A DNA stretch of 58,546 bases, from assembly GCA_027596075.1 (NCBI GenBank), contig JADGJC010000250.1, positions 1 to 58,546 of the forward strand. The letters are read 5' to 3'. The notes under the pieces were generated by a model. That model was given only the letters and a program-made list of their open reading frames with translations, was not told the DNA's origin and made no database searches. The translations under genes and the position numbers were made by a program. Position 1 is the stretch's first letter; the number at the start of each line of letters is the position of its first letter. Shown here piece after piece: positions 4,079 to 49,188 of this stretch. The stretch comes from Rhizophlyctis rosea (lineage: Eukaryota > Chytridiomycota > Chytridiomycetes > Rhizophlyctidales > Rhizophlyctidaceae).

Positions 4079-4221
4079 AAGACTAACCTTCTCTCCCTTG
4101 CTTGAGTGAGAAGGCTTATGCCCGAACACTGCTTGCACCCGAGATCCTTTTTGGATCCTAAAAAGCGCCTACTCTGCCCAGGGGTGCGGTCTGCTCGGGG
4201 CCATAACGCTGATCCATAGGT
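4079..4221. repeat. Structured ~143-bp element, copy 2
   Basis: Second copy of the element at 3904-4048, separated from it by about 30 bases. The inner hairpin is GATCC (4143-4147) - TTTTT - GGATC (4153-4157), where copy 1 has GACCC/GGGTC. This paired change preserves the stem. This copy also has a longer stem near its start, CCTTCTC pairing with GAGAAGG. It lies about 520 bases before the start codon of the RRM-FCP1 gene. Confidence 0.55.
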
Positions 4222-21789: not shown

Positions 21790-23410
21790 CGGAGGTCTTC
21801 TTGCCTCAATTTCTCTCCCCCATTCTTCCCACTCATCCGCAACACACTTCACCATTCACACGGAAATCACACACAACACGCGTGAACAATGCCATCCATC
21901 TATATTTCGGCTCAATCTATCGAATTGGCATAAGATTTATCGAAACTTGGTGAGTATTGCATGCTTTTTTGGTCGGATACCGCCAGTTTCACACTTTCCT
22001 CACCCACAAACTGGTTTTCCCACAGGTTCTCGGCCACCAAGAGCTTTCTATACCGAAAACACACCGCAAACCACGTTTTTTACTCTAGAACCTACCACAA
22101 CCGTCGGCACATAACCTCATTTCGAGTTCTCACCAACTTCGCCAGCACCACTTTCACACATGCTCAGAAAAGCGCATTCCCACAAGTGGCCTTCACCTTC
22201 TCGCTTTTCATCCAATTCTCGGGCCATCCATCCTCTCTCACAAAATAATCATCCACGGCACGCTCAATTTTTCCTACTCGCGTTTCCGTCAAGTTCTCCC
22301 ACCTGGCAAGGTCAACATACCGCTTGGATATCCGACTTCACAACCCTCCCGAAATCTTCCCAGCACCAAGTCAAGCCGCCACCAACGTCGCACCTCTTAA
22401 GTGTGTGACCAAGAACCACCGAATCCTTCCCCTACTGGTCTACCCGTCACACGTCTTCTCTCTGGGTCCACTGTAACAAGATTCCGCCGTCACCACTGCC
22501 AAGTCAAGACCACGGTCCCTGTGAACTGAGTTCCGGCTTCCACTCCGTTCCCCTCAAGTCAAGACCAGAGCTACCACAAGTGGAGAGGATTGGTGTGCCC
22601 CAGCCTTCAACAGGTTGCATTCGCCACCACTACCATCCTCAAGGCGTCGGAGAGGATTGGTGTGCCCCCACTTATTCAAGTTGCTGTCGCCACCACTACC
22701 CTCCTCACAGGGTGAGAGGATTGGACGGCCGTGACATCAAAACTGATGCCCCCTGCCGTCCATTACCATCCTCAGGCGTGGGTTAAGAGGATTGGGATAG
22801 CCGGGCAGGTTCACTTACAGTTGAACTGGGCGCCCCGTTAGCTTTCCCACTACCATCCTCTGTGTAGGGCGGAGAGGATTGAGCAGTCGGCGCGGCCATA
22901 CTTGAGTTTGCGTCCTTTTGCTGTCTCATTACCATCCTCAGAGGATTGGGTAGTCGACACCAAGTTTTCGCTTCAGCTTGGTGCTCCTTTTGCTATCCAT
23001 TACCATCCTCCACCATCCTTATCTCAAGACTGCGCGGTGGTCCTGGCTTCGTGCCACGGCCATCGGTTTCAGCAACCGCGGCCCTTTTTGGAGCCAAACA
23101 GACGCGCGGGTGCAGCGTGGTGGTTCCAAGCAGATGGACCACAATTTAAGACGCATGTATCTAAACGAAGCAATCTTTCTTTCCCTTGTGTGTGTTTAGC
23201 GAAGCGGGCACCTCCTTTTGGTGCATTCTTCACTTCTTCGTTTGTTTTCTCTTTTGTTTCCTTTCTCTGTATATAACTGGCCATCATTTGTTTGTTTGTT
23301 GAGACGTGAAGGGAAGGACTTTTGGTTGTTAGATACTTGTACATTAGCTTCCCTTTTTAAAATTAGTTTTGTGCTTCAGCATCATGTATCTGGTGGTGTG
23401 GAGGGTTGAA
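21790..23410 (+). ncRNA. Putative spliced leader/non-coding RNA locus A carrying a hairpin array
   Basis: A pyrimidine-rich start leads to a good splice pair (GTGAGT at 21950, CACAG ending at 22025), then a CT/CCA-rich exon with no conserved protein. It ends in six hairpin units (22584-23010) and a conserved tail around 23080-23170 (GGTTCCA.GCAGATGGACC, then AAACGAAGCAA). The layout and many words repeat in locus B (42370-43950), including a leader intron, while the possible peptides do not correspond. That favours RNA function. It points toward gene 2, whose ATG is 23806. It may be an independent transcript or the 5' UTR of gene 2. A non-coding transposable element is an alternative. Confidence 0.45.
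22584..23010 (+). repeat. Tandem hairpin array A (six units)
   Basis: Units at 22584-22640, 22651-22706, 22715-22773, 22786-22860, 22873-22939 and 22940-23010. Each starts AGAGGATTG and most end TACCATCCTC, so GAGGAT can pair with ATCCTC. Inside, a second stem differs between units but stays paired: TGGTG/CACCA (units 1 and 2), GGACGGC/GCCGTCC (unit 3: 22723-22729 with 22755-22761), GGGATAGC/GCTTTCCC (unit 4). Unit 6 has an inner hairpin CACCAAG (22958-22964)/CTTGGTG (22977-22983). Unit 2 has a C in place of A in its closing ATCCTC. Such paired changes indicate selected structure, probably in RNA. Confidence 0.75.
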
Positions 23411-23805: not shown

Positions 23806-26800
23806 ATGGCATCCACACAGCACCCAGTGAAGGTGCAAAACCTTCCAAGGGCTATCAAGCACTCCGACCTATATGACCGGTTCGCCGCCCACGGGTCAAT
23901 CGACCGCTTCAACTTCGATAACGTCTCGGTAGACGGAACATGTACGATAGGTTACAAAACACAACGCGGTGCTGAGACTGCTGTTGCGGCAGAGGCTGGT
24001 CAAACGCTGCTGGGCAGAGCTATCCGTATGTATACGAAGTGTGTACGTTGTTTCGTAAACTTGTCTGACCATCACTTTGATACTTGAAGGCGTGGAGCAT
24101 ACGCAAGCGATAACTACAAACAATACGGTATGTACTGCATGTCTTGGGTAATTTACTGGTCTGCGTGCGTTCTAGTTAGCATGGGTCATTTCCTGTATGC
24201 CTATATTTCTGACTTTTCGTCTAACGCGTCTCCTATGGTTTGTTTATTTACATCCTGGGTCCTTCACAGACGACGCAACCAACATCCGGCGCACCCTCCA
24301 CCTCGTCAAATCTTCCGACGCAACGTACATCTGCAACGGCGAATACAGACCAGAATGAAGGGTCTTCCCGCGGTGGTGGTGGTGGTGGGCAGGGTGGAGG
24401 CCCGGTGATGAATAGGAAGGGTGGTAGAGTCATTGGTGGGGTGGGTGAGGGGTCGGGGTGGGGGGATGTGAGGATGTTGGCCGACTCGACGGTGGAAGAT
24501 ATGACTGTCCTGGTGTTGTCTAAGACAGGCATGATTACCGACAATGGATGTTCGGTGGAATATGTGTACGCCGGCGGAAAACTTTACGGCGCCGAGTCTC
24601 CGACCTCCGCCAAACTCTCCCCAACCGTCTTCCCACCCACCACGAAAGAACAATCCTACCGCCAGATAATCTATACCTGTATCCTCACGTCATCAGCATA
24701 CCTACCCCCATCCCTCCTCGCCCAATCTTCCCTCACAACAAACTTCAACATCGACTCCGCCCTCCTATCATATGCATCCCGCATCCACAACGACCCCGCA
24801 AAACTCCGGAAGACATACCCTGGAGTCATGGATGTTTCTCAGAGCAGTGATTGCCCCATATCCATCCACGTCAGACAATTCTCGCACTCAACCGGGGACC
24901 TAACTTTGTACTGTAAAGGATCCGGAGAAGAAGTTTTGGGGAGATGCGCTAAGATATGGGATGGTGGAATGGATAAACCGGTTAAGTTGACGGATGAGCA
25001 AAGGCAGGAAAGCAAAATGATGGCGGAGAGAATGGGCCAGATGGGTTTTCGTGTGCTGGCGATTGCTACGTTACCCCTGCGACGTACCGAGTACCCAAAA
25101 ACACATGCCTTCATCATCGATCCGCCGAACTACCCTCTGGATGGGTTTACGTATTTCGGTTTGGTAGCGTTGACCGATGGGGTTCGGGAGGGAGTGAAAG
25201 ATGAAGTCTTGCGCTTGAAGTCGTTGGGTGTCAAGGTATGTAGCACCTTTGTTCTCTGTTCCAGCCTGCCTCATTCCCTTGTGTGTGAGAACCCATACGC
25301 CGTCAAACAGTGATGGCTTTCAGTGGGTGGTAACACCAGTTTTGAGGGAGAGTCTCTTGAATGTTTGTTGACTAATACTTGTCATGCATCACAGATTTGG
25401 TTGGTTTCGGGAGACGGCATCGAGACTGTCAGAAAGGCCGCAAAACGCAGTGGCATCCTATCCCACACACCTACAATCCGCAAAAAAACATCAACATCCT
25501 CCCTTTCCTCCTCCTCCTCCTCCACGCCCTCTGCGTCTCAAACCACCTCCAAAATCCTCAACGCCAATGCTGAACCGTTGACGGATTTGACAGAGCAGAC
25601 TTGGACGGAGGTTCTGGAATGCGATGAAGTCGTTATCGGTGGCGCGAAGAGCCGAGATGTCAAGACTCTTTTGGGATGGTTGGAGGGGTGGGAATACAAC
25701 GTGGGAGTTCTGGGGAAGAAGTTGGGGGTTGTGACGGAGGAGTTGGGATATGGGACTTTTGGGGATGGGAATGACCAGTCTAAGAGTGATAGTAAGGGCG
25801 ATAAGAATGATGATGAAGAAGCGGAGAGGGAAGGATGGGACAATGCTAGTTTTAAAGCAGAAAGTGAGGGAAGTGTATCTGAAGGGGAAGAGGGGGCAGT
25901 TTCGGAAGCTGAGGGTGCAGGATCAGGAACGGCATCGGAGGGAGAAGATGAACTTCGTCGTGAAGATTTGACGGACGCCGAGCTTGCACAGCAGTTGGGG
26001 GAGGAGGAAGAGAGGGGTTTTAAGAGAAAATTGAGGTCTAAGGGAAAGGCGAAGGAGATTTCGAGTGGTGGTGGTGGTGGTGGTGGAGGGAGGGGGGAGA
26101 ATAAAGGGAAGGGAAAGGCGGATGGTGGTGATGATGATGATGGTGATAGGGACTTTGCGCATTTGTTGAGCATTCCCATGGAGGCGGGGTTGACTTATGA
26201 TTTGACCGGGTTTACGCCGATCCTCGAAAACATCATTGTTGCACCGGCTGAGGGGAAGGCAAGACATCCGGTGGCGGACGATTGCAGTTGTGACGGGCGC
26301 ATCAGTAAGTGTTCAGTGTCAACATTCACAGCAACTATTGGGCTCATTTAGTTAACCTCTTTCTTTTAAACAGAGGCATGCAGGCTCGAAGACGACTGCG
26401 ACAACGTGAGTGTGTTTTGGGAGGGTGGGGCGTCATGCAAGGCGGGCGACGCTTGCCGCAATAAACGGTGAGATTGAGTCGGTGCGATTTATTTTCTTGG
26501 CAAGGAACTTACACAGACAGTCTACGATCTCCAGCTTGCAAGGGAAGCAATGGTCGAAGGTTGAGTTGTTTGCGGCTGGTGGGAAGGGCTTGGGTGTGCG
26601 GGCAGTTGAGGACATTGACGAGTGAGTTTGAGAACTCAAGCTGGCAACTTGTGATTTATTCCTCCCTCTGATCTCCCTAACCTCATCCCAGAGGCGCCCT
26701 CGTGGCCGAATACTTAGGTGAAGTGATTGGGAAGGAAGAGTTCGACAAGAGGGTTATGCAGTACGATGATGCAGGACATGTCCATTTGTATTTTATGGCG

Positions 26801-28675
26801 CTGGACCAGGGAGAGGTGAGAATTTTTGCCATGAGCCGTTGTCAAGCATTGGGTTTCTAACACCACACCGTTGCAGGTAGTAGACGCGATGAATTACGGA
26901 AATGTAGCAAGGTGGTTGAACCATTCTTGCACGCCGAACTGCACCTTGGAGCGATGGTCTGTTGGGGAGGAGGCAAGGGTTGGGCTTTATGCCAAGACCA
27001 GGATTAAGGCGGGGTCAGAACTTGTTTTTGATTACGCCATGGAGGTGTACGGGTATGTTTGCTTCATCTCTTGGCTACATCGCTGAAGAATACAGATGCT
27101 TAAACTCCATCTGCAGTCAAACAGACCAAGTGTGCGAATGCGGCAGCGCCAACTGTAGGGGAGTCATTAATGGAAAGGCTAAGAAGAAAGGTAGGCGTTC
27201 ACGACATGCTGGGCATGGACTTGCGTGGCAGGAGCTAATCATATTCTACTTTGCATTTCAGAAAAGAAGAAGCAATCCTCCACTTCTGACCACCACGACA
27301 CAACTGCCCATGACCATGATCAAGATACCGGGGGTGATGCGAATGAGGATGGGAAGGAGAAGGAGATGAATGGGGAGAATGGGGGTGAGGGCAGCGCAAA
27401 TGATGGTGGGAAGGGAAAGGGGAGTGGGAGTGGGTCTCAGAAGGAGGATGAGGAGGGTGGTGAGTCGGGGAAGAAGACGCCTGATGGGACAGGGAGAAGT
27501 GGGGACAAGACGCCGGATTTGGGTGATGGTGGAGTGGGTGGAGAGCAAGGTGGGGCTGAGAAGGAGAAGAAGAGGGATGATGGGGGTGGTGAGAGGGACA
27601 AGAAGGATCAGGAGGATGATGGGACGGGTGAGGGGGAGGGGGGGCAGCAGGATTTGGATGATCAGGAGAAGAAGAGGCGTGATGGCGGGGTTGGGAAGGG
27701 GGATGACGAAACGGGGAAGACGAATATGACGGATAAGGGGGGAAGGAGTCTTGATGAGAGGGAAGGGAAGAAGGACGCTGAGGACAATCAGGCGTTTAAT
27801 GGTGGGAGTAGCAGTCGTAGTGACGGTGTGGATTTCGAGGGTTGTTTTGAGGAGGAGGAGGGGAAGAAGAGGTTTGAGGGGTTGGTTAGGAGGTTGAGGT
27901 TGGGGATGGTGAGTTTTCGCCACCTTTGGGTATCCTCATGACTCTGACTCACGACTCTCCTTCAGGAGAAGTTGGATTTGGAGGAGTGGGGCCTGAGTGC
28001 GGAGGGTAGAGTGCTTTTTGCGGGGAAGTTGGAGAGGGGTATTGGGATGGTTAAGAAGTTGAGCGCGTATTTGCTTGGGTCTGTGCTGTTGTTGACCGAA
28101 GGTGGGGATGGGGAGGAGGATGGGGAGTTTGTGTATGGAAATGTAAGTATTTACCAGATTTGTGAGATGCGGTTTCATATGACGTCCTCCAGTTACTGAC
28201 CGCTCCTCATGCCCAGCCGATGTACTTCAAGAACATCACCGACATCCATCCCCCAAAACCGCACGACCTCACCGCCTTCCAAATCAACTACCTCGACAGT
28301 AGCATCACCCTTCGCGCTCCCACCGCGAACAATGCTCAACATTGGACGACATTGTTGAACAAGAGATGGGAGAGGCAGAGTGTGGAAGATGGTAGTCCCA
28401 GGACTGTGCTTCAGGCGCTGTCTAGGGCGGGAGCACAGGAGGGAGAGAGTCCGTTCCAGGTATGTACGGGGATGCGTCCTCATCTCATTGCCTTCCAGTA
28501 AGCTGACATTTTCAACCTGCAGCCTCTACGGAGGGAGATTACAAGTGCTCGCGCTGACATCCAATCCGCCAAGGACTACATCGCCACTGCGGAAAGCAAG
28601 GTGGACAGGATGGAAGGGATGGTGGATGATTTGGAAAGGGAGTATTTGAGGGTGAAGGGGCAGGGGTCGGGTTAG
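23806..28675 (+). CDS. RRM / dead P-type ATPase / SET methyltransferase / PH fusion protein, paralogue 1
   Basis: Exons: 23806-24025, 24090-24127, 24270-25235, 25395-26304, 26374-26467, 26535-26621, 26692-26815, 26877-27052, 27117-27190, 27262-27908, 27966-28142, 28217-28459, 28523-28675; 1302 aa. Domains: RRM 1-74. P-type ATPase N/P loop about 155-520, with the phosphorylation motif read L-S170-K-T-G-M-I-T (Asp to Ser), KGSGE at 302, FRVLAIA at 346, S-G-D-G-I-E-T at 413-419, and V-L-G-K-K-L (513-518) where ATPases have the GDGxND motif. Acidic stretch 536-600 with a UIM-like AELAQQLGEEEE. AWS Cys705/707/714/720/733/739, one Cys replaced by Gly729. SET about 745-870 with N828-H-S-C and C835, then FDY. 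Post-SET C878/C880/C885. Gly/Glu/Asp-rich linker 897-1112, PH-like 1113-1230, coiled coil 1253-1302. No membrane helices. The SET resembles the SET2/NSD group of H3K36 methyltransferases; the ATPase part cannot autophosphorylate. Confidence 0.85.
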
Positions 28676-31600
28676 ATGGGTTGGGTATTTTGATGTATGG
28701 AGGTATTTTGAGTTTGTCGGGATGATCATTGTGGGGTTGCATAGTTGATAATAAGATTTGCAATTGGGATCTTCCTGTTTAGTATGAATGCCATACTACC
28801 CCGCAATGTTTTGAATATTTGAACCTCGACGTTGGATTTAAGGGGGAAAAGGAAGCTCGAAGCAGATGTGGCTTATCCATTGTAAACAAATATCTGCGCC
28901 ACGGGCCCAAGACGCTGTTTCAATTGCATGCGCACCACGCACTGGGGTGAAGCACATATGCTCTTTCCAGCCTGACAACTTGGCGAGACTCTCCGAAATT
29001 CATAATTGCTGAGACTCTGTTTTCTTTTGACGAATTGTTCATAGAATGTTTCCAAAAGCAGCACCGGAATCTGCGATTAGTGGCGAAACATGAGACGGCT
29101 GTTCCGCACCCTTCTTGCGTGAACCTCAATGGAAAGAGCGGTTGTGATGTCTGGCACTGATGACACGTGCGCCCATGATGACAGATAAAATGTGTGCCGA
29201 CGAAGTGTATCGCACCCACTCTCAAGGTTTTTCCTTTTATAGTGACTCCATCGAAAGAATTGCTCAAAATGGAGGTCGATATGATATAACACATTTTGTG
29301 GTACTATGAGCCCGCTGAGAATTTTCTGCTATGCCAATTGAAAGGAGCAGCCAGGTGACAGGTTGAAGTTAGTACTAGCGGTTGGAAGCATGTGGGCACT
29401 TGATTGACTGTCACCTTTTCAGACTTCGCACTGATACCAGTCCTCCAGATTTCCGATCACGAAACCGGGGTATCATAAGCTATTAGTCAGTAGCAACGCT
29501 CCCAAAACAAAATCCAGAACGGGAGTCCGGTACCGATGATTCAAGTCTGCTCAATCTTTTTTGTGTTGGAAGAATGTTTGCTGGTTTAGGCGGCGATCGT
29601 GAAGCGAATGTGTAGGGGACTTGGTCGTTGAACGAGCAGCTTCCAAAAGTTTAGATTGATGCAGAAGTTGAAAACATCATCAACTCACTGGGTTGGCAAA
29701 ACTGACCATTACATCTGACCGGCACTAGGGTGATATGTTTCTCCAACCAGGGCAGGCACATGACTTTTTCGCAAATAGCTAGAGTTTACCTGAAGTGATT
29801 CACCCACGCCGCAGAACAGATCGTCGTCCCTGCACAAACATCGTGAGATGTTCACAGAGGACTGAACCAATTGGTGATTGGCGTTGGAAGGCGGGCCTGT
29901 TGGGTGCCGCAAAAAGGTTGTAGAGGTTTCATCTATGGAAACTTGGAGTGGACAGTTCAACCCACAACGAAGTGACATATATACTGGAAATTCTTGCACT
30001 GCGGTCCTATTAACAAAGTAAGCATCATGATTGAAGTTTCCTCTAATCCCTGCGGGCGGTAGCATCTGCCGATGTGCGCTGAGATTGAAATCGACATATG
30101 CGTACCCCCTTTTCGGCTTCTTCAACCTCTGAAGAAATGAGGTCTAGATTGATTTTGGATCCCAATAATGAACGAGTTGTCAGTTCGATAATGACCCCAA
30201 AATCGAAAATGACAGACGATGGTTGGATGCGTGCATACCGGTGGACGAACTGTGCAAACATCTCTTCAACCTTATATTGAGGTCAGACATCGTTTCCCAT
30301 TACATTGCAATTGGAATACTCGAAGCTTCCCGAGAATCCCCTCTTCCCCACGTGGTCAAGTAGATCCGGTATTCTTTCAAAGTGTGTGGCGCTGGCATAT
30401 CGTATAGCAAGTCTAAATAAGTAGTGAAACCATCTGTGACCCTTGTAGCCCCATCAGTCCGCCGGTTCTATTCACGTACATACCAGGAAGTGGCATACGG
30501 AGCACTGCGCACTTAATCCTGGCGAAAATCGGGCCTTCTTTCATAGCAACGTAACATGCAAACTGACCAAATCGTATATCCAACTATGAAATATCCTTCC
30601 GCCAAAACTAATTGCGGGCATATTGTTGAGGTTCAGAGACTTCCCAATGTTTATGATCAAATGCGGTCTCTAGAGGCCAGAAGGACGCGCAATATCGAAC
30701 AATGGTCTAGGAACCTTCAACGACCGAGCTTGAATGGGAATGGTTTATGTTTACACACGCTGGAGCACCCTTTGATTAGCAGCGCAACCGATGCCGGGAT
30801 TTGTGATGGATTTCCCGGGTATATCGTAGGTTTGTGTGATCTAGGCGCAGACATGCTGGGCAGTGCGAGTAGCATACCAAAGCTGGGGAAGTAGTAGAGT
30901 CATATATTCGGATCATCACAGTGAGCTGATCTGCATCTTTTGGTAGCTGATATTCCAGAGCTAGCAATCCGAAGCCTTTTTGCTGTTCTGGGGACTCTCT
31001 TAAAGCGAGAAGAGCACGTTCACCGGTCGGTTTCGGACATTATGAACTGGTAACTGCGCTGCATTGTTTAGAGAGTATCGGTAAGTGAATAAGCTATCGA
31101 TCGGGATCAGAAAGCAGGCTTGAAGAATGCAACAGATAATCTAGTCCCCAAAACTCACCAAATTCAAGCGCTGGTGGGTGGTTCGCGGTTTCGTACCCTC
31201 GTTTTTGCTACCAGTCCGAAAATCGAAACGAGCCGTAACCTTCCGAAAACCGCATTCTCGCGTAATGAAGAATAGCGACAAAAAATGTGTGGGTGCATGG
31301 AGGTGCTGAGCGGACGTTTGGCATCATCTAGCGATCTAATTCTGAAGAGTTGATTCAAAGCAGCTCCTCAATACAAAGCATCAAAGAGTGGACCACCAGA
31401 GGAGTGCGTGTTCAGTGCAAATTTGGACGGACTAATGACAACAGAGCGCATGATAGAGGTCACAAGTTGCCAAACCGGCTGATACATCGTCTCCCACATA
31501 TTCTTCAACTTGCTATTAGATGGAATCCACCCTCTCAAAAAGGCAATTCAGAGGCAAGGAAGACAGCTTAAGAGGGGGGGAAACAATTCTTATCCACGTG

Positions 31601-34600
31601 GATCAGCACCATGCAATCGATGTCAGGCGCGAATTTGCATATCTTGAGTGGAAGCTTGAGCTTCGTATCTGGCATTAGGACCTTTTGAATCATCCATCTT
31701 GGGCGGTTCCGGCAGAAGTGCTCTAAAAACAAGGACCAGGTACCACTCCTCAACCAAGACAGCACAATGAGCAATCCAATATCTGCACCGCATAAGAATG
31801 CCGTTCATTCCTCATACCATCAACAAAAGCCCATTTTCATACGCGCAGTGTTGTACACGCTGAGATGATGGCTGGGAATCGACGGATATGGAGCTGTTGA
31901 ACATACCCTGCTGAGCAACTTGAGCATGTGATTCGCTTCCTTGCAACACGACCCCAATGGACTGGCCTGTATGCATCTTTGCAATCACCCCTATTCAAAA
32001 AGGGCATTTTCGACGAATCATGCAGTTGCTCCCTTTTGGATTTGGCCGATGAAGAACTTATGTTTTGAGGCCGAAAAAGTGTCCCTTACCAATGGCTGAA
32101 CTCAAAATTGTATCAATGGCCAACTCCTTGAAATGAGCATGTAGGTCTTGTTGATTCCTGTTCTCCTCGCAAAAAGTTTGTTAGGGCTGCACTGGACTAG
32201 GGTGTAGAATAAACAAAGAACTGCGCCACGGGCCCATATGCGGCCGTTCGAATCTAAAAGTCATGAAACAGCTCATCAATGGATAGCAAGCTCAACACGA
32301 TCAACAAATAAGAATAAATCACGGGAATGAACCGAAAAAGACAGTGCCGTCATTTATTGAATTGAAAACACAATATCCATTTTTTTGGTTTGGATTCTGT
32401 TCTTGATGGGCGATAAAGTTGAAAGCAACTGTGAGGAGGTGACGGAATCATTGAAGAGTGCCTCGGGATCTGCGATCTAAAAAGTGATAGGTCCGGACAT
32501 AAGAGTGTACCCATTGGTGATGCTCGCAAGACATCATGGCATGTAGCGCTCAGAACCTGTAGTTCAAGGCGTGTGGGACCAGAAGAAAAGCTCAACGGCA
32601 ATTTATCCAAAGTGACCAATACAAGCGGGATGAACGCTATTTGGACTGATGGAAGTCTCCGTCACCTCGGGCGCTATCAGCGGAAGTAGTGCGCAAAAAA
32701 GTTTCTCAAGTTGCATCACCAAATCCAGGGAGCTAGGCATGGTTGATCTCGCATCCCAGCAAAGTCCTCGTGATTATGCATACTATCAACAAGCGCTGTT
32801 GTTGACACTGGAACAAGCCGCCGTTTGGGGTGCGAAGGATCCAGATAAAGTCTAAACGATGAAAAAAGTACCAATGAGACACTGGCAGTATCAGCAGAAT
32901 CATGGAAGGTACCCTGTTGAATGTGAAATGAAAGACACCGGCTACAACGCGTATTCGAACAGTGGTTTTACATGACCAACCATATAATGGCTTATGGTTG
33001 CCGGGCTCTGGACCAGTACTGCCACGCCACAGCCAAAAAAAGTAGATCTTATCAAGGGGTGCAATACACTGCGCGTCAATAATCGACTCCTCAAGAGGAA
33101 CATGCGCAGCCTTGTTTGATTCTGAGTTTTCTGTCCTATTGGCACGGAGATTGTCAGCGGCGCACTGCAGTGTGGACAGCACATTTGGCAGGGGGCTGCA
33201 TCGTCATACACAGAACCATCATCTTTGAAGATGAGCACATCTGCTATTGCAACTATGGAGGCGTGGGACGGAAACTATATACCAGGGATGCATATGGTCC
33301 GCTCGCTTCGGACGTGCCAAGCACATTGAGTGTGAATTGACCTGTCTTTGCTATGATGATTTCAAACAATTAGATCTAATGGCTTAATGGTGCAATCCTC
33401 GCTCTCGAGTTTTGGGAACGAACAACGAATGTCAAGTGTGGGGGAAAAAGTCTGCATCCCAAAGGGGTGGATCAAGGTTCCTATCAATACGCGACCCTTG
33501 ACATGAGCGTGTGTGATGTCCAACGGATTCCTGTCGAATATGCGAAAAGACTGTCAGCGAACGCACTGCAGTAGGGTGAGCAGGGATTCACATTTGGAGG
33601 GTTCTAGTGCTCCTCATTTCACTGACGACTTGTTCATCCGAATCTGATTGTGTAATGAACAGCTGACGAGAAACCAAAGACACCCGCTTCATCATTCCAG
33701 CTTCCGAACAGGGGACGGAGTAACCCGCCCAGCTGGGTAGTATTGATAGTTCTGTCCAGGCAAACACGTAAAACTCCACAACCTGATCGTCAGAGCCTGT
33801 GTGGAATGATAGCTAATGATGGTACGTGCTGAATGAGCTCTTCTAACTTCACCGCGACAGCGCAGCGCAACAGACGGTCCCATGGAACTTGTGACACTCA
33901 TATGCTTGCAAGCATACATATTGTTGTGTGATTGCTTTTTTGCAGCTGAGCAACAAGGTATGCAAAACAATCATTGTTGCGCGACACTTGCGGGCTTATG
34001 GCGGGAATGTCCCCGTACCATGTTACTTGCGGTTTTTTTTACCGTTCGCCCAACTTTGAGTGAGAGGGAACAGGAAAGAAAGTTATGTGTAGCAGGGCCA
34101 CTATAAGCGTGCAGTCCGCAGTTGCCCAAGGCCGTCCAACATTGCTACCGCGAGTCTCTGTTTGTATGGCATAGCTTGATTAGATATACCCTCCCATTAG
34201 CCTTCCGCAACCGGGTCAGCTATTGTGACGAAAGGCATCATAAGGTGAGGGGGCTGTGCTTGGCGCTGATCAGTGGATGAACTGTACTGCGAAGGCTTAA
34301 TTGTAGGATGGTAATGGTTTGTTGTTTTTTTGTGAATGACAGGGCGTTGCATAGATCAGCCATCACTGAACTCATGAGCCCCTGCTGCTGGCACTGATTG
34401 CACTCGCGTGTACGGAAGCATACTTTGGCCCACTTGAGTGCACGCCCGGCTGTCCATGTTTGAACGGGATGTGATCTGATCTCATAACCTCGAATATCGG
34501 TTGTGGAGTTAATTTGTTTGACTGGGCCGACAACATGGTGAGAGAATGGCAGAAATAGCAGCTTTGAAGACGCGTTTCTCTCCTCGGATTTTCGTTGCGA

Positions 34601-37600: not shown

Positions 37601-40600
37601 AATACATCTGGAAGCAGGCGCCAGCCTATGCAGATTCGAACGGTGTGTGCTTTGGTATCTCGATCGTGCGATGGAAGATGGAATTCATTTTTATTTGACA
37701 AGTCTGGCAAAACCACGAGGGTAACGCAGGTATGGTAGATTGCAGCACATATGTTGTCACCGGGTTCTATGTTCGCCGCAAAATTGCGTGCTGACGCAAG
37801 AAAGGGAGGTTTCAAACGGAGTGACAGCTTGACCGTGACAAAAAGGAATACGGACAATACTGAGAGACGTGCTCAAGACAGCGTCATAGCTTGATACACA
37901 TGTATAAGGTAGGACAGCCCGCACATCAATGAAGCCGAATGCTGTGAGATAGATTTGTTTAATGATTTACACTCACTGCACTAATTGCATTGTCACATTG
38001 TATGCACGCGCGTTGTGCACTTGAAGAATGGGCAAAAAAAGGCCAAAGTGAAGCGCCTACGTCTGAACGGACTCGAAATGTCAATGTTCCACACGGAAGA
38101 TGTCGACAGAATCCTAATCCAAGGAGAACAGCAAGCTAATTCACAAGTCCGCCACAGAGGACGGCGAAGTGTTTGATCAGAGCCAAATCCATTTCTTTGG
38201 GGCACTGAAATTCGAAATGGGAGATGTGTACCCAAAACGCGAGAGAGGTTTTCCTTGCACTCTGGCGCATGATGGACAAAACTTTCCCTTTTTCTTCACC
38301 AAGCGTCGGGGAGCAGTGAAGATGAGGGATTCCTGAAAACTTACCATTCTGACGCCCAAACAGGACTGCATGGTCTCAGCCTCTCATTGACCCTCAAGCC
38401 TGGCATTGCCGTGATTCCGCCAAAGTCTGCCCAACAAGATGTACAGATGACGGCTTGGCAAAATCTAATCTTTGGCAGGTTCAAAAATTATGAGAAACCC
38501 ACTTTCGATTGGGAGACGAGTCCTTACGCTGAACGCACCATGCCACTGGTCATTGCCGCAAATGAGGCCCAAGAAGATTGAACTACAGAGTAGGAAGACT
38601 TGGACCAGTTCAACCAGCTTGTCGAGAGTCAAAAAAAAGGGCACCAGAATCATATGAGATGACTTCCAGAAACCTGCGGATGATCTCGAGATACATGTTT
38701 GGATATTGACTTGTTGCACAGGTGGAGGCTCCAATTGATGGAGACAGACGGCAGGTGGTTCCATTCCGTACATCTACCAAGCATACTCGGAGATGATTGT
38801 GCATTGCAGCACAAAAGAGATTCTATCCCAGTATGTAGGTTCAAATATGCAGGGCATGACTTTGGGAAATGACTATGGATCTCAACGTGAACTGAACAAA
38901 TTTTGAATCCCGTTCCTCCACGGATCTCCATTTCTTTTCAAATCGCGATAGCTATTGGCATCTCACGTGGGTAAGCGAGGAATCAGGGGATGTTAAGATT
39001 CATAAAAATATTACAATCGCATTGGAGTGGAAACGGAGATAAAAATTATTTTAGAGACTTGCTGGAACCCTTGGAAGCAGGCGGTGCCGTCCTTCCAGCA
39101 GGGGAGGAGGGAAGGAAGGGTGCTTTGATATATACTTCAAACATATTAATAACGCGCATTTCTCTTGGAACGTATCTTTGCACTTCACGTTGCTGACCTG
39201 AAATCGGCACATGGATCATATTATTCAGGATCTGGGCCATTGCACTCCATAGGTGCTAATGGTCACTAAAGATGTAGAGGGCGTCATCCATTTCATACTT
39301 TTCACGCGTCGCATTTTCTGAGATTGTGACATGCACGCATTGTCAATCAAGATAGGCACAAAAAAAGTGCGAGCGAAACCAGAAATGGATTCATGCGCTT
39401 GGGAGAGCGGATTTTCCAAACCGAAATAATGGACGAGTTTCGACTGGAGCAAGGCCCGTTCATTCACCAAACCTGCAGACAAGAAGTGTGAGCAGTCCGA
39501 ATGGATTCCAGCGTTGTTGTCCCTCACTTTGGTCTGAACGGAGTGCCGTCAATGCGCGCAAACATTTCCGTCACGTCTGATAGATGATCTCCCAACGTTT
39601 CTCTTTTGCCAGCCAAATGAGAATGGAGGCGTGAAGGTGTAGCCTCGATCTCCATCCGCTCACCGAATATCACGATCAAACGGTCTCATTGATCATGAGC
39701 CCACTTAATGGGGCCTGTTACGTGATGAACCCCGCGTCCTACACTTCTTTGTTGCAAAACGGAAGAGAAAGAACGCTTTACAGAACAAATTTTCGATAGT
39801 GAGAGTCATGCATCTTGCCAAGGAAGGATGCCCCCACCCTGGGGAACCGAAAGCGATTAGCCGTTTCAAGCTATGAGCTTGTGGAACACTTGCTTGTGCC
39901 AATGCGGTTTTCGAAACTCCAAAAAGAAACAGGAACGATTGCAAGGTGACGACTTCCGACTCGTTCAAGAGCTTGACGCACATGTTTGACAATGAGCTGT
40001 TGCATCGCTTAGCGCAAGCTGACAAGTTTGAACCCCCCCTCTAGTAAACTCTTTCATTGGTACTGATAGGTATTGGTGCTCTGCACAAAAAAGCCAGTGG
40101 AGATTCCATTAAGACCGTCAAACAACCAAGAGATCTGGTGATGACGATTGGAATGTAAGACAAAGTCACTTATCAACTCTAACCAATCCCATTGTAGGAT
40201 CGTGACGCCTGCATATCCCTACAAGAAAATGGCCGAGATACGTGCAAAAAACAGGGAAGGGGGAAAGTGGGAATAGGTTGCATGTGCTTCGCAATGGGGA
40301 TGGTTTGGATTCTGGAAATTGCTGACAGAAGTTTAGACTGGTGCACAATGCTGAGCTGACTCGCCAATCTTTCATGAAAGGTAGCAAGGCGATCGATCAA
40401 GACTCGAGTCCGCCGTTCTTGTCCAATACTTTGAACAGGCAGGTGTGTGGACAATGCAGGAGCCATTTCATCTACATCGGTCAATTGATCAGCAGAATTC
40501 TTTTTTTCAACTCGCCAAGCGTCAAGTGGTTCATTTCGGAAGTTGCAGCAATGGAGAGCTCCAAACTCAACGTGGCGAGCGGATCATTGATTATCAAAAT

Positions 40601-42330
40601 TCGGGTTGAGGTGAATGTTTCGAAATGTGAACCACTCCTTGGATAGCGGTTTTCATGGCCCAACCTGATTTACAGATGACAGCTGTACAAATGTAACCTT
40701 GGAGGGAGCAAAAAATCATACCACTGAATTACAATTATCAGTCAAGGGGAAATGACGGGTTCCGCTAACCCAGCACCCCAACCAATAGTCGTGATTGAGA
40801 GCTGAGAGACATCTCAGTACAAATTTACTATGACATTAACCACTTTACTGTAGTGTCAAAAAAGAGACATCAAGTCGGTGATTACATGACATCCCGGATC
40901 CCGCTTGAGAGTTCGAGATACATTTTTGCATAAAGATCCTTCATTCCAAAGTCACCCAAGTTGCGCATGGATTCGTCGATTGATTTGGAATGTTTGAGAT
41001 GAGTGAGATGGATCCATCTGCGAAATTCTACCCCTTGCACTTGTAACGTGAATTGTGAGGTGCGGCACAGAAAAATTCCCTAAACTCCACATAATATGTC
41101 AAAACAACCACGGGACGAATTTGTGAGATGACGGTTGTTCGTGCGGTATCATGAAATTGAGGAATATCAATAAAGGTAGTGCAAGGTCTTCAACGATCCT
41201 TAAGTTTGCAATACCCATTGACATCTCTCTTGAGTAAGCGACGTTCAATCAAATCCTGACCAATCAGATCATGAACCGCAGCATGCGGGACGCCCAACTC
41301 CACAAGAATGGTAAGTTTGCAGATCGTCTGCTGTTGTCTGGTCCCAGAACGGGGTTCTATGAAAGAGCGTAGTGGATCGGTGGCATGGATGCACGTCATG
41401 ACGCGAGGTGTTCGGTGGATCCAGACGGGTCTAGACCTCTGTGGGATCCGAATAATGGCGTGTTTCTTTCAGTGGCAGTGCATTGTTCCCCGTTCAAATG
41501 ACCGTATGGGAAGAAGTTCGCAGTTTAACAAATTAGTGGGACGGAGCTTCCGTCATTGAGACATGAATCCTTTTCAGTACACAGCGTGTCTTTTTTGAAC
41601 TGGGGTCTTGACGCCTGCTATGAGACTCTGTCGCGGCGTCACGTCCACGGAATGGATGAGACATGCAACAGGTGATCCACCGCCAAGCTGTGGATCATTT
41701 GTTTCTTGATGACGGGAGACGATTGTTTCAGCTGAACATTCAGCCACGAGTGTATAGAAACGTATATTTGGGGTGACGGTGTTGTTTGAGACAGATTGCG
41801 CGTGAACGGTGGGGAGTCAGGACCCACGATTTCTGTAATTGTGCAAATTGCGGATGAGGCAATTTTGACGGAGAGAACGTTTTTCCTTTCAGCGGAGGCG
41901 GATAGCCTCTGTCACCCGCAATGTGCGTTTTAATGACCCTAATGTAAGAGAAGAGCGAACGTGGCATGATGCTCAAAGGCGCAGACGCGTTTTTCTGCAC
42001 CAATGCGATGCAATCTAGCCCCTTTCTGCAGTGGATATTGAGGTCGACCCATTATTAGCATGTGGGTCACCCGATCCACCGTTGTGTGGATCAGCAGGAC
42101 GGGGGACGGAGTCTAGACCCTTGCGCTGCTCCCATATGTTATCAATATGTCAATTATGACGTACCGTTAAATTGCGGTGTGGTACGGGATGAAGCTGCGC
42201 ATTGGGTGCGGGACCCTGAAATTTGCCAGGCGAGACCCGTGTCTAAATGGGTGGACCAAATGTGGCGCGGAAAGCTGACCAACCAAATGTGATGGCAGAT
42301 CGATCGACAGATGGGATCGCCGATGACGAC
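28676..42330. other. Gene-poor stretch with faint ancient repeats
   Basis: About 13.6 kb with no recognisable coding sequence. Open frames are at most about 150 codons, which fits chance. Weak internal repeats are visible: CTTGA.ATGAGC.TGT...GATTCCTGT near 32130 and 33500; TGTCAGCG..CGCACTGCAGT near 33150 and 33550; AAACAACCA.G.GA...TG.TGA.GACG.TTG near 40120 and 41105; and CTGCGCCACGGGCCCA near 28894 and 32221. These look like decayed transposable elements. No conserved domain could be read from any frame. Confidence 0.45.
33150..33600. repeat. Pair of decayed direct repeats
   Basis: The string TGTCAGCG-CGCACTGCAGT followed within about 20-30 bases by CATTTGG.AGG occurs at about 33152-33191 and, with small insertions, at about 33552-33600. 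Upstream blocks near 33500 also match bases near 32130 (CTTGA.ATGAGC...GATTCCTGT). The unit length is roughly 0.4-1 kb and divergence is high. Confidence 0.4.
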
Positions 42331-42369
42331 CCAGAAAAGCGGAGTCAACCCTGTCAACCCTGTGAACCC

Positions 42370-43950
42370 TTCTTCCTTCTCTCCTTCACTTCCATTCCCC
42401 ATTTTCACTACCACCGACACCAACACCACATACTACGCGTATCGACAGCAAGTTTCCTCCTCCTTTTGTTACGACGGCACGAATACGGAAGTCTCGCGGA
42501 GTTCTGTCTGGTATGTTCTTTGCCAGTTTGCAAATGGTGCGCGGTTTCCAACGCAGCCTTCCTCACCAATTCTCGTTCACACAGGTTTCTGACCCACATA
42601 CCACTGGAACAAGCACAACCACGTCTCAACCACCTTTCCTCCGTCGCTTCACTCTCATAACCGCTAAACTACGTCGTTACCACCGGTACCGCCCCATATG
42701 GCCGTCCCACCTCACTCGCTTCAAGGTCTCCAGCCCCATTTTCACGAAACCACACCAATTCGCAACCTTCTCCCCTCCCACTCTCCACAACTCCTCTCTT
42801 TCTTTCCAAGACCTTTCCCCTCGCAACCTCTTTCTTTTGCGCCTGCCTTTCCGTCAAGCACGCCGTCGTCACCGCAAGATTTCGCACTTCCCACGGTATC
42901 CGACTCTCACGACGCCTTCCCAACCCTCAAACCTCAAGTTCGGCGGCCATCCACCCACCATCCATGCGAGTGGCCCAAGAAGCATCTCAGAACTCTTTCT
43001 TTGGTGGTCTACGCATCACACTTCGACTCCAGCACTTACGGTTCCCCTCTCAAGATGCCGTCTCGGTGGGCGGGAGTCTCAGGGGCTTTAAGCCGTCACC
43101 AGAAGTCTCGCTCGTCTCTTCCTCCGCGAACTACCGTCCTTCGCCATCCATCCTGCCTTCCTGGACCCAAGTCAAGACTCCCCACGAACTGAGCTCCGGC
43201 TCCACCTCAGTTCCCCCAAGACGAGAGCCACTCCAAGTCTGTCTTAGAGGATTGGTGTGCCCCAACTTCGGTTGCCTCGCCACCACTACCATCCTCGCCA
43301 TTTCTTCAAGAGGATTGGTGTGCCCCAACCTTGCAGTAGGTTGCATTCGCCACCACTACCATCCTCCATAATCGGGCGAGAGGATTGAGTAGCCGGCAGC
43401 CACACTTGAGTTGTCCTTTTTCTACTCTTACCATCCTCATGGCGTCGTTTCGAGAGGATTGGATAGCTGGCAGTCCTGTTTCTATCCCTACCATCCTCAT
43501 TCGGGCGAGAGGATTGAGTAGCCGGGATCAAAGCGCCACTTGGTCTCCTTCTTCTACTCATTACCATCCTCATGGCGTGGTGAAGGATTGGATTAGCCGG
43601 CAGCCACACTTGAGTTGTCCTTTTGCTATCCATTAACATCCTTGTGTACGGCGGAGAGGATTGAGCAGTCGGCAGCCACACTTGAGTTGTCCTTTTGCTG
43701 TTCTTACCATCCTCAGAGGATTGGATTTGCCGACATTGGGTTTTCGCTTCAGCCCTTTGATCCCTGCAGTCCATTACCATCCTCCACCATCCTTTTCAAG
43801 AGGGTACCTTAGCCCCTGGTCTAGCGCCCGGCTCTGGTTACTCACCGCGGTCCTTTTTGGGCTAAAAAGATGCGCTGATGCGGCGTAGCGGTTCCATGCA
43901 GATGGACCGTAACTTAAGTGGCAGGGCTAAACGAAGCAATTTCCTTCCAT
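42370..43950 (+). ncRNA. Putative spliced leader/non-coding RNA locus B carrying a hairpin array
   Basis: Counterpart of locus A. A pyrimidine-rich start (CTTCTTCCTTCTCTCC) is followed by a splice pair (GTATGT at 42511, CACACAG ending at 42594), a CT/CCA-rich exon, the shared block AAGTCAAGAC...GAACTGAG.TCCGGCT (about 43160-43210; locus A about 22500-22540), eight hairpin units (43246-43784) and the tail CCTTTTTGGGCTAAAAAG, GGTTCCATGCAGATGGACC, CTAAACGAAGCAA. Long frames here (up to 192 codons) are not conserved with locus A. It points to gene 3, whose ATG is 44488. The same alternatives apply as for locus A. Confidence 0.45.
43246..43784 (+). repeat. Tandem hairpin array B (eight units)
   Basis: Units at 43246-43296, 43309-43366, 43379-43438, 43453-43498, 43508-43571, 43583-43643, 43655-43714 and 43715-43784. 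The outer stem is GAGGAT/ATCCTC as in array A; unit 6 is degenerate at both ends. The second stem varies by unit yet pairs: TGGTG/CACCA (units 1 and 2), GAGTAG/CTACTC (unit 3: 43387-43392 with 43422-43427; also unit 5), GGATAG/CTATCC (unit 4: 43461-43466 with 43482-43487), GAGCAG/CTGTTC using a G-U pair (unit 7). Unit 2 adds an inner hairpin CAACCT (43326-43331)/AGGTTG (43338-43343). Spacers between units are about 0-15 bases. Confidence 0.75.
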
Positions 43951-44487
43951 ATCAAGCAAACAGGTCTTTTCTCTAATGTGAGTACTTCGAAATGGATGTT
44001 ATTTTCCGTGCATATAGCTGACCATTTTTTCCTGGCAGTTTTCACCAACACAACTCCCCGACGCAAAGTTTAGTTAGCTGCTTTTTTGCATTTTGTATTG
44101 TGAAGCACATGCACGTCTCTGTGTTCTTCTGCGAATAGAATCAGGTCACCAGGACCAATCACATGTGATTGGCGAAATGGCCATCCACTACCAAAACAAT
44201 GGCTTCCAATCTAAATTGTTGTAATGAAAATCCAAGGCGCGCCTCTAGCAGGTGCTGTGGTGAAGCTCAATCCGAGAAAGTGGATCACCACAGGTTGTTT
44301 TGGGGGGACTGAGACATTGTATGACTGTGGAAAGTGGCACAGGCTCACCGCGCCACACGCCGCACGCAAGTGTGGGAATGGGAATGAAACCCCTTTCTCC
44401 CTTTGACAGATCTTGATCCCTTAGAAATGCAGCAGTGAAAAGTTTGCAGGCAACGTAGAACAAACTATTCGAAGTGCACGCTGCAAT

Positions 44488-47400
44488 ATGGCTTCCACTA
44501 GCCATGCTGTTCTGGTGAAGAACATGCCTCTCAAAACCGCGCGAACAGATATCCAAACCCGTTTCCAAAACCATGGTCGGATCCTGTATATTACGTACGC
44601 GACGGTTGCCAAAGATGGGAGTTGCCATGTATACTTCAGAAGTCAGCGAGAAGCTCAGACAGCCGTCAAGAAGGAGGATAACATGTTGTTCAACGGACGA
44701 CTAATACGTGAGTGAACCCGATGTCTCCTACCTCTCAACAGTCACACTCATACCGTTTTGTTTACTTTCAGGAGTAGCAATTGACGACACCGCAACAAAC
44801 CTCGATGTAATCCTTTCTGCTTCATCAACAGTATGTATAGACCGTGACGGGTTTGCTTGACAGTTTCAACTCTTTGCCGCATTCTTCTGAATAGGTTTTA
44901 CGCTATCATATATACCTTCCTTGCTCACGCGTCTCCCCCACCCTTTTTGTTTATTTACATCATAGCCTACAACCCAACCCACCACCCACATTCCTTCCCC
45001 TCAAATCCCGTCACTCCAACATCAGCAGCATCAGCCGCAACAGGGGAACCAGCATGCTAATGCCGATGTCAGTGGATGGCTGTCCCGGATGTTGAGGAGG
45101 CGTGGGACGCTGAGTAAGGGGACTGTGAGGACGAAAGAGGAGGGAGAGGAGGTTGAAAGTGCGTTGGGCAATGCGTGGAGTGCTGTGAGAGTAGTTGGGA
45201 GGAAGGGGTTCAAGGATGTGAGCTTGCTAGTGATGTCTAAGCGGAAGGTTTTGACGGACGGGGAGTGGAGTTTGCGGTATTTGTGGGGAAAGGGTGTGGT
45301 GTATGGGCTTGATCAGTCAGTGATGGGCCGCAAGGTGGAGCCATTGGATATCAACTGCCAAGCGGTGCGATGCATGCTGTACGTCTCCGCCTTCTCGACG
45401 ACGGCCAGCCTACTCCCTAACAACAACATCCATGGCCCTAACCGCGTCGACAACATCCTCCTCCGCCTCGCAACGGACAAACTCTCCAACATCTCACACC
45501 TCCATACTGCCAGTCCCACCTACGTCAACATGCCCTATGACCCTAAGAAGGGCTATTCAGTGGCGGTCGTCAGGAGGACTCCCCAAATTATGGTCTATCT
45601 TAAAGGCATACCGGAGGTGGTGTTGGCTAGATGTGACAAGCTCTTCATCGGAAATGACAAGAAGCCAGAGAAATTCACGGAAGAACATCGGCAAGGCGTG
45701 ACCGCTATGCTCCATCGCATGCGTCGGACCGGCCATAGCGTTATCGGTTTTGCCGCACTGCCTTTGAAAGGAGTGGATTATCCTCGGAATTTGGTCTTCA
45801 CATCCAACCCCCCCAATTTCCGAACTACGAGCCTAACCTTTTTCGGCATGGTGGCCATCAAGGACTCTATCAAAATGGATATGGTGGAGAAGATCCAGGG
45901 GATCAAGGGGACGAATATCCAGGTTTGTACATCCCCATTCCTGTCACCCCTTTGAATTTGGACAAATAGTGTTCCTCACACGGGAAGCCAAGCTGGTTGG
46001 CTTTGTTATGTGAGAATACACTTGTTGAGAGGGTTGTAGTGTCCATCACACTAATAGTCACGCCTTTCATTCCTCCTTTCCATACTCACCTTTTCTAGCT
46101 GGCCATGCTTACAGCGGACCATCCCGATACCGCGATTTACATTGCAAAGAAGCTCGGCATCATTTCCGAAATCCCGGCAACACCCTCCTCATCCGCGAAC
46201 GACGCGTCCAGCACACCCGCTCCTTCTTCCTTCATTTCCGTGGACGCTCACATGCAACACTTTCGATCCATGGACGATGAAGACCTTTCCGACGTGTTCT
46301 CCCATCAGGACTTTGTGGTCGGCAATGCGAATGACCAACGCGCCATTGATTTTATCAGGGCTGCTGTTCAAGTGGGGCACACCGTGGCGGTTGTGGGGAA
46401 GAAGTTGAGGACTTTAGTGGAGGATATTGATGTTGCGGATTTGGAGGAGAGCGATGATGGGGATGAGTTCCAGACGGCGGAGGAGGAAGGTAGTGATGAT
46501 GATGATGGGGATGAGGAGGTGCAGATTGCTTCGGGGAGTCTTGACAAGGGGAAAGGCCCGGCTAGGGCGCGGGATGTTGATGCGCATGCGAGGAGTGATA
46601 GGAATGAGACGGCGGCGTTTGGGGAGGGAGACCAGGACTTTGCAAAACGATTGCAGGCGGCCGAGAAGGAGAAAGATAGGCGCTTTGATTTGCGGAAGAC
46701 ATTGAAGATTTTGGCGACGGGTGTTAGTGAGATTGGTAGTTTTGGAATGGGAGGGGCGAGTGGTGCTAGTGCTGGTGGTGGTGGGGATGACGAGGAGATT
46801 GATGAGCATGAGAAGGATTTGTTGACTATCCCCGTCGACCCCTCGGTGGGAACGCCCGTCTCCTCCCTCTTCACACCCATCACGAGCTCCATCCCTATTG
46901 GTAATGCAAAGGGGCGGGCAAAGGATCCTGTTAGTGGAACTTGCCATTGTGATGGAGTCACGGGTAAGGTTTCTCTTGTGAGGAACACGCCAGTGCATGT
47001 TGACTGACCTGGCTGCTTTTTCAATGTTACACAGAAACCTGCGGTCCCAACGATGGGTGCTCGCACCGCACCGTTTTTTGGGAGTGCTCGACGGAATGCA
47101 AGGCGGGAGAACGGTGTCAAAACCAACGGTGAGATGACGTGGACATAACTCGCACCATTTTTTCTTGAGACTGACATGATTTCCAAACAATGCTCAGGCT
47201 TCGGCGCAAGCAGTGGAAGCAGTTGGAGATCTTCAAAGCCGGTGAGAAGGGGTTGGGCGTGAGGGCATTGGAAGATATCGCGGCGTAAGTACTTTGTTCA
47301 AACCTTGATCATTATGAAGTAATTCTCCAACTATTTTATCTTGTGCCACTAGGGGAGAGTTAGTGTCGGAATATGTTGGAGAATTGCTTGATGCCCCAGA

Positions 47401-49188
47401 GTTTGAGAAGCGGAAGAAGGAGTACAGCGATGCCAATATTCAGCACTTCTACTTTCTTCACCTGGGAAATGGCGAAGTAAGATTTGATGATTGGGTTGCC
47501 TGGTTGAAGTCATTTTACTGACTCATCCCTGCTGTGCAGACCATTGACTCCCTCAACTACGGAAACGCGTCGAGGCTTTTTAACCATTCTTGCTCCCCAA
47601 ATATGAGATTGGAGAAATGGGGAGTGGGACGTTCCGCTCGTGTGGCGTTCTACGCGGTGGAAGGTATCAAAGCAGGCACAGAACTTTGCTTTGATTACCA
47701 GATGATTGTGTACGGGCAAGTCTCTCTTCGTGCTCTTTCAGTTTGAGCAGCTTTTGTAAATTGACCCTTTCTACCATACAGAAAGGAACAACAAATCTGC
47801 GCTTGCCGCAGCGAGGAGTGTAGGGGGTTCATTGGTGCGAGCGCAAGTAAGAAAGGTATGTTCCCTTCCTTCTTTCATTTGGTCTTCAGCGCCTGACGTT
47901 CCTCAAATTCCTCATCACAGAGAAGACGAAGAAAACAATCATACCCGCCCTCCAACAACCCTCCACATCCGACAACAACACCCACACCCTCCCCCAACCA
48001 CCGACACAGAACCCATCCCCCAAACCATCCCCACAGACCTCTTCCCCTGCACCACCAATAGCAACACCGCACCTGAGCTGCAGGATAAAACGCCCGGCAC
48101 GGATGCGAGTGGGGATAACCTGATTGAGGAGTCTGTGGTGGAAGAGGCTGTGGAAGGGAGTTTGTTGCCCTCTAATGGGAAGGAAGTCAAAGGCGGGGCG
48201 GATGCGGGTGGGCAGAAGGGTGGAGATGGTGCTAGTGCTGGATTGGAGGGGAGTATTGAGAGGGAAGGCGAGTCGAATGCTGGGGACGTGGAGAATGATG
48301 CTGGAGGGACGATGGTCGATGACGGGATGGAATGGGAAGGAGTATTGGGGGTGGAGGAGGGGAAGGAGATGTTGAAGGGGTTGGAGACCCGTTTGGAGGC
48401 TAGTGGGGTGAGTTATGAGAAATTTGAAAATCAAATGAACACTGTTGCTGAATGATCGGGTGTAGGAGACTATGAATTTGGCGGGGAAGAGGTTGCTGTT
48501 TGAGGTTGGGTTCGTTAAAGAGAAGGGTTTGCCGAGGGATGTGGGGGCCTATGTTTTGGACGGAAGTTTGTTGCTGACGGAGAGGGGTGGGGATGGCGAA
48601 GGGACGGAATGTACATATGGCCAGGTATGTGTAACTTCTGTATTTGGTATTCAAAGTTGTGCATATCACAACTGTTTGCGCATTCCATGATGGTGATTTT
48701 TGCATAGCCCATCCCCCTGAAAGACGTCACCCTTCAACCCATACCGTCAGAGCCGACATCCTCCCAACCTGCTTCCACCTCGGTCTCTTTCATGGTGAGC
48801 GGCACTCGGAGGGCATTTGAGACGAAGACTGTGGAGGAGGCCGCAAAGTGGAATGCAATGTTGGAGAAGGTGGTGGACGCGGCGAAGAAGGAGGACGATC
48901 CCGCAATTGGTGCTGCCAACCCATTGGAGCAACTGTTGCATAGCCCCAGACAACTTCTTAGCGAGTTTACTAAGGCTGCAACAAACGCTGATTCGGTGCG
49001 TAAATCATACTTTTGCGAAGAACATTTTGCTGTGACTAATATTTACTTTGCTTGTTTGTCTGCAGGCCATCGCTCTCATTGAACGAGCCCAGCGTGGACT
49101 CCGGACGGCGAACACCGTGCTCCAAGATGTGTATTCGGATCTGGAGAGGGCAAAGGAGGCGTATAGGAAGGAGAAGGCGACTGCTTAG
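44488..49188 (+). CDS. RRM / dead P-type ATPase / SET methyltransferase / PH fusion protein, paralogue 2
   Basis: Exons: 44488-44707, 44772-44830, 44966-45922, 46099-46963, 47035-47128, 47198-47284, 47353-47476, 47540-47715, 47782-47855, 47923-48407, 48466-48624, 48708-48995, 49066-49188; 1236 aa. Exons 1 and 5-9 have exactly the lengths of paralogue 1. Domains: RRM 1-74. P-type ATPase loop about 170-520, with the phosphorylation motif degraded to M-S184-K-R-K-V-L-T, Y-L-K-G-I-P-E near 306, M-L-T-A-D-H-P-D-T at 415-423 (family TGDHP), and V-G-K-K-L at 511-515 replacing the GDGxND motif. Acidic stretch 522-552. AWS with all seven Cys (694, 696, 703, 709, 718, 722, 728). SET about 735-860 with N817-H-S-C but Met824 where a zinc-binding Cys is usual. 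Post-SET C867/C869/C874. PH-like about 1048-1165 and helical C-terminus. The intron after exon 8 starts with GC. No membrane helices. Probably a nuclear histone methyltransferase; activity is uncertain because of Met824. Confidence 0.85.

Follow-up and report, generated by a model that had tools for sequence, protein, structure and literature searches.

This analysis concerns two paralogous genes, A and B, on contig JADGJC010000250.1 of Rhizophlyctis rosea, a chytrid of the order Rhizophlyctidales (assembly GCA_027596075.1; positions 1 to 58,546, hereafter the window). In the reading that we consider probable, both genes encode predicted lysine methyltransferases, likely derived from Set2, in which the enzyme is preceded by an N-terminal RRM and the catalytically dead head of a sodium pump, the head likely serving as a docking scaffold. 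The features that carry this reading are located as follows.

23806..28675, + strand: gene A, 13 exons, 1302 aa
23806..24025, + strand: A exon 1, RRM at aa 9-74, Pfam RRM_1 27.7 bits
24486..25235, + strand: A exon 3 part, aa 159-408, P-type N domain with the beginning of the P domain, S170 at the phospho-Asp place (codon 24519-24521)
25395..26304, + strand: A exon 4, rest of P domain, acidic linker and first AWS cysteines in one open frame
26283..27190, + strand: A exons 4-9, AWS-SET-postSET by Pfam, PDB SETD2 match and introns, AWS cysteines from 26283
44488..49188, + strand: gene B, 13 exons, 1236 aa
44488..44707, + strand: B exon 1, RRM at aa 8-74, Pfam RRM_1 29.1 bits
45203..45922, + strand: B exon 3 part, aa 173-412, P-type N domain with the beginning of the P domain, S184 at the phospho-Asp place (codon 45236-45238)
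46099..46963, + strand: B exon 4, rest of P domain, acidic linker and first AWS cysteines in one open frame
46942..47855, + strand: B exons 4-9, AWS-SET-postSET by Pfam, PDB SETD2 match and introns, AWS cysteines from 46942, intron 8 GC-AG

Both genes read as uninterrupted frames through 13 exons. Their coordinates, and the equal lengths of exon 1 and exons 5-9 (220, 94, 87, 124, 176 and 74 bases), agree with the initial annotation of this DNA. All 24 introns but one are GT-AG, the exception being the GC-AG intron 8 of B (47716-47781); the acceptor of B intron 9 (...CACAGAG, at 47922) lies two bases past the first CAG, a choice that the frame demands. The two proteins align from end to end at E 5e-149, with 381 identities over 1325 columns, and their likeness is thus far above chance. 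The strongest proof of the fusion is exon 4, which in A and in B runs from the distal P domain through the acidic linker to the first two cysteines of AWS, interrupted by neither stop codon nor intron; at sequence level, therefore, head and methyltransferase are a single gene in both paralogues. The equal exon lengths, which had been taken to rule out a chance join, were rejected as proof because the lengths 87, 124 and 176 also occur in a separate Set2 gene of this genome (C312) and were inherited from Set2; the exon 4 frame excludes such a join instead. Exons 1 (220), 5 (94) and 9 (74) are common to A and B and not to C312, whose counterparts of exons 5 and 9 measure 115 and 95. Profile searches of both proteins placed RRM_1, Cation_ATPase and SET above the Pfam cut-off in both, with AWS above it in B and just under it in A (21.3 bits against 23.3).

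The head is, by sequence homology, the N and P domain of a type IIC (Na,K/H,K-ATPase) pump. Against PDB sequences it matches Na,K/H,K-ATPase at 1.4e-20 (A) and 1.6e-21 (B), its best NCBIfam family is TIGR01106, and a pump fold is predicted for the exon 3 part of both proteins. Residues with known roles in Na,K-ATPase include the adenine-stacking Phe, the Mg2+ Asps and the Lys of SPxxK. DKTG is the P-type phosphorylation site and GDGxND a conserved signature, according to a published account (PMC6592433). In the proteins studied here, the phospho-Asp motif DKTGT is replaced by SKTGM (A) and SKRKV (B), and the GDGxND Mg2+ site by LGKKLG (A) and VGKKLR (B). The distal P domain of A reads SGD and then LGKKL (25710-25724) where the TGDGxND region is expected, and that of B reads TADHP and then VGKKL (46393-46407).

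Residue loss was counted over 44 columns conserved across 90% or more of a set of 14 canonical pumps, namely 13 database P-type proteins (P0011 left out) and C633, a type IIC pump gene of the same genome that keeps DKTGT and GDGVND. A retains 19 of these columns and B 21; 14 are retained in both and 18 lost in both. Neither protein has the phospho-Asp, the final Thr of DKTGT, the SPxxK-region Lys or the D, N and D of GDGxND, where both read GKKL and the last Asp lies opposite a gap. In place of the adenine-stacking Phe, A has Gln and B has Tyr, which is also aromatic, and B, unlike A, has lost the Arg matching R667 of C633. Both proteins keep the Lys-Gly of KGxxE, the TGD Asp and several positions of the core. 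With key catalytic residues gone from both paralogues, the head is likely catalytically dead, and the GKKL common to A and B suggests that it was inactivated before the two genes duplicated. No membrane helix was found in A or B, the best 19-residue hydropathy being 1.45 and 1.25, respectively, against 2.99 in the partial, 8-exon C633 pump model; nor did the actuator domain (Pfam E1-E2_ATPase) give a match in either protein up to E 10. The description of this region as a membrane-free, dead P-type N/P region is borne out by the Na,K/H,K-ATPase match, the lost residues and the hydropathy.

The best PDB match of the methyltransferase module is SETD2 in both proteins (2.5e-48 in A, 1.3e-46 in B). 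Catalysis is predicted for both because the NHSC and FDY motifs of SET and 10 of the 11 cysteines common to Set2 and Ash1 are kept in each. The canonical Set2 of this genome is the C312 gene, which carries AWS, SET and SRI (Pfam 3e-11) as well as a WW match that narrowly misses the cut-off. Introns 5-8 of both A and B agree with those of C312 in alignment column and in phase (2, 2, 0, 2); intron 4 has the C312 phase and lies six columns off, beside a gap. None of the positions of introns 4-8 is common with the Ash1-like AWS-SET gene C59 (L030). Intron positions thus favour a Set2-type module. The "SET2/NSD-like" label had been applied earlier: AWS-SET-postSET is sound, and the introns point to Set2, though the SET tree does not separate Set2, NSD and Ash1. 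That tree held 14 rows, including 10 database SET proteins, with the long SETDB1 and SET1 rows left out; the genome yielded 28 SET places (two of them A and B), with wider regions taken around C312, C59, C19, C551 and C116 and gene models built for C312 and C59 only.

In neither protein did Pfam report WW or SRI at E 10 or better, against 3e-11 for the SRI of C312, although a divergent helical tail is possible. A genome-wide SRI search returned no match and also missed the SRI of C312, which is split by an intron and was seen in the hand-built model. A and B were also considered as the Set2 orthologue and rejected in that role, as it is C312 that carries SRI and a near-cut-off WW; the two genes are likely extra Set2 derivatives.

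The origin of the head was followed in loop trees built from 7 of 21 genomic PF13246 places (A, B, C633, C262, C482 and C19, plus C615 in a single tree) and from 11 of 14 database P-type proteins (P0008, P0009 and P0011 left out). A and B grouped together at 98/96, and A, B and C633 at 95/97. With the other paralogue removed, the grouping with C633 stayed for B (97/96) and for A (88/91), which answers the worry of long-branch attraction only in part. Intron 3 of A and B (phase 0) lies exactly at a C633 intron site; a rough count, with two C633 introns and about 1,050 possible sites, puts the chance of such a match at about 0.002. The second C633 loop intron is absent from A and B. The introns common with the C312 Set2 gene and with C633, together with the grouping of the head with C633, argue for a DNA-level chimera in which a Set2 copy would have acquired a fragment of a pump gene; a later duplication of this chimera probably gave A and B. 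With type IIC pumps and Set2 present in the same genome and intron sites in common, the origin of a multidomain protein becomes traceable exon by exon. A second type IIC pump gene, C615 (L028), was also found; it has DKTGT and GDGVND and no intron at the site common to C633, A and B.

Conservation between A and B was measured region by region as identity and as a z score against 300 shuffles. The AWS-SET module stood highest (113/217, z 44.6), followed by the head (77/271, z 23.8), the RRM (31/76, z 18.7) and the C-terminal block (50/131, z 13.2), while linker 2 (32/95, z -0.3) and the tail (21/67, z 1.7) were near the shuffles. Over the loop, identity was 27.6% between A and B, 25.8% between A and C633 and 29.3% between B and C633. 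Because the head is well above linker 2, yet A and B are about as close to each other as to the pump, we infer a constraint on its fold and not on its site.

WW-SRI couples Set2 to elongating RNA polymerase II. The predicted enzymes A and B would methylate lysine, probably H3K36, and would bypass the WW-SRI route to RNA polymerase II that guides Set2; they would reach their target through the binding partners of their two N-terminal modules, RRM and dead head. There is, in our estimate, an even chance that a dead, membrane-free sodium-pump head, captured by a duplicated Set2 gene, is the targeting module of a new family of chromatin lysine methyltransferases, a nuclear P-type pseudo-ATPase. 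P-type ATPases are familiar as pumps in membranes, whereas in A and B a chromatin-type enzyme would have taken up only the cytosolic head and retained it across a gene duplication. The pair is thus a natural experiment on the role left to a P-type head that has neither catalysis nor a membrane.

Three other explanations were weighed. The head could be a sensor that binds a ligand (nucleotide, Mg2+ or other) without turnover and thereby switches the methyltransferase. Both proteins keep the Lys-Gly of KGxxE, the TGD-site Asp and, in all, 14 of the 44 conserved columns, which speaks for this, as do the predicted fold of exon 3, the aromatic Tyr of B at the adenine-stacking place, and a precedent in Plasmodium, where a P4-ATPase domain acts upstream of a fused guanylyl cyclase, though there it is reported active (PMC7858053). 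However, both paralogues are without the phospho-Asp and both GDGxND Asps, the stacking Phe is Gln in A, and the Arg matching R667 is lost in B only; with these residues lost or differing, no ligand pocket common to A and B is kept, and we consider a sensor unlikely. The initial annotation had offered a nucleotide or metal sensor or a scaffold; the sensor is disfavoured by these losses, and the scaffold is favoured by elimination. Rather improbable, too, is a head without function, a passenger or decaying fragment in a protein where only RRM and SET matter. The low loop identity between A and B, about that of each to C633, and the 11 identities in 60 positions of the distal P part would fit such decay, but in both copies the frames are still long and open and a pump fold is still predicted, and the loop lies far above shuffles (z 23.8) where linker 2 does not. 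Finally, neighbouring genes for an RRM peptide, a pseudo-pump and a SET protein might have been misread as one. Exon 1 alone could encode a short RRM peptide of some 100 aa, its open frame running to 102 aa in A and to 96 aa in B; against this, head and AWS lie within one exon 4 frame in both copies, the diverged paralogues agree in domain order and exon 1 length, and the NCBI model of A is identical, so that we give an artefact almost no credence.

Several observations weigh against the scaffold reading itself. The scaffold role rests on elimination, and A and B are known from DNA and predicted models. The distal P domain is weakly conserved (z 8.1), and conservation reaches beyond the domains, with the acidic linker (42/135, z 4.7) and linker 1 (22/79, z 3.7) moderately above shuffles. 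The alignment behind the structure models contained pump sequences. When a partial C615 row was added to the loop tree, C633, C615, A and B grouped at 92/91 with their inner order not separated. In the SET tree, A and B joined each other (94/97) and not Set2, and each protein is without one of the 11 Set2/Ash1 cysteines, A lacking one of the AWS and B another. The last point concerns the RRM, which exceeds the RRM_1 cut-off of 20.7 bits in both proteins and contains the stretches VKVQNL and DGTCTIGY in A and VLVKNM and DGSCHVYF in B. In the RRM consensus, aromatic residues at RNP1 and RNP2 stack on RNA; set against it, neither RRM has aromatics at these positions, and RNA binding is therefore doubtful. 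The two RRMs may bind protein instead, for which a study of hnRNP L with SETD2 offers a precedent (PMC8575775).

Set against known systems, A and B resemble Set2/SETD2 in the AWS-SET-postSET module, the best PDB match and the four intron positions common with C312, and differ in having no WW or SRI match and an added N-terminal RRM and dead pump head. They resemble the type IIC ATPase alpha subunit of Na,K/H,K-ATPase in the N domain, part of the P domain, TIGR01106 and the C633 grouping, and differ in having no membrane helices, no actuator match and neither the phospho-Asp nor GDGxND. Set1 is not known to have AWS, and it has no pump head. The fungal Set1 family is alike in joining RRM and SET in one protein and differs in having N-SET and SET-assoc, according to a fungal SET survey (PMC9692433); the main text of that survey contains neither "ATPase" nor "Rhizophlyctis" (PMC9692433). 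Type IIC pumps have been published from basal fungi (PMC1479386, PMC9609216).

Among the literature searched, the nearest published idea is the alveolate guanylate cyclase-P4-ATPase fusion. Like A and B, this apicomplexan protein links a module of a P-type ATPase with an enzyme of signalling; it differs in being of the P4 type, in keeping its membrane helices and in having a cyclase as partner (PMC6592433, PMC7858053). In P. falciparum, the ATPase domain of GCbeta is called degenerated (PMC6592433), and the ATPase activity of GCalpha is reported as essential (PMC6592433, PMC7858053). No RRM-P-type-SET protein appeared in the titles and abstract openings of the literature searched, in keeping with the earlier statement that no protein of this order had been described. 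Among the matches listed by three protein searches (11, 75 and 5 proteins, the first two sets drawn from the first 7993 and 7990 candidates), A and B remained the only proteins to combine Cation_ATPase with SET. However, the search with the alignment of A and B did not bring up B, and neither search with B brought up A, so that absence beyond R. rosea is not shown.

Both proteins have public records. The NCBI protein "histone methyltransferase set2 [Rhizophlyctis rosea]" (P0001) equals A at 100% over 1302 aa, and "Histone-lysine N-methyltransferase setd2 [Rhizophlyctis rosea]" (P0012, 1225 aa) corresponds to B at 98%; its model omits 20 aa from linker 1 and a further 2 aa at intron 8, and has 11 extra aa at intron 9. 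The names set2 and setd2 conceal the fusion and label the paralogues as Set2, the canonical Set2 being on contig C312.

Behind the methyltransferase, both proteins have a further conserved block.

27966..28459, + strand: A exons 11-12, C-terminal block that is also conserved in B, PH-like nature not established
48466..48995, + strand: B exons 11-12, C-terminal block, weak PF00169 match (E 0.2, below cut-off)

The initial annotation had described the order RRM, dead P-type loop, AWS-SET-postSET and PH twice over; the first three modules stand in both proteins, and the PH-like domain is not established. Pfam PH (PF00169) matched B only, below the cut-off. A PH profile made from seven stretches of this genome scored 3.3 bits in A and 2.9 bits in B, values reached by 1/200 and 3/200 shuffles, respectively; its matches cover the last strand and helix only, with an hhalign probability of 1.4%. 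A search of the PDB with a profile of A and B, up to E 10, listed 11 sequences, none of them a PH chain. A PH domain in this block is possible.

Elsewhere in the window, a dispersed repeat lies upstream of A (22499-23184) and of B (43167-43948), in copies that are 71-75% identical to each other and rich in TACCATCCTC...GAGAGGATTG hairpin-like units; the self-comparison that showed it gave no DNA-level match between the A and B genes themselves. The repeat had no Rfam match, and further copies lie on C35 (89%), C5, C108 and C605. A tRNA search found none. A Pfam scan of 30 other open frames of at least 120 aa (of 69 listed, those of A and B included) gave a single sub-threshold match, to the phosphatase PhoD, in the open frame at 15261-15866 on the minus strand of the window (E 2.7e-05, below cut-off). 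At 3903-4221, a 173-base unit is repeated in 1.8 copies at 90% identity.

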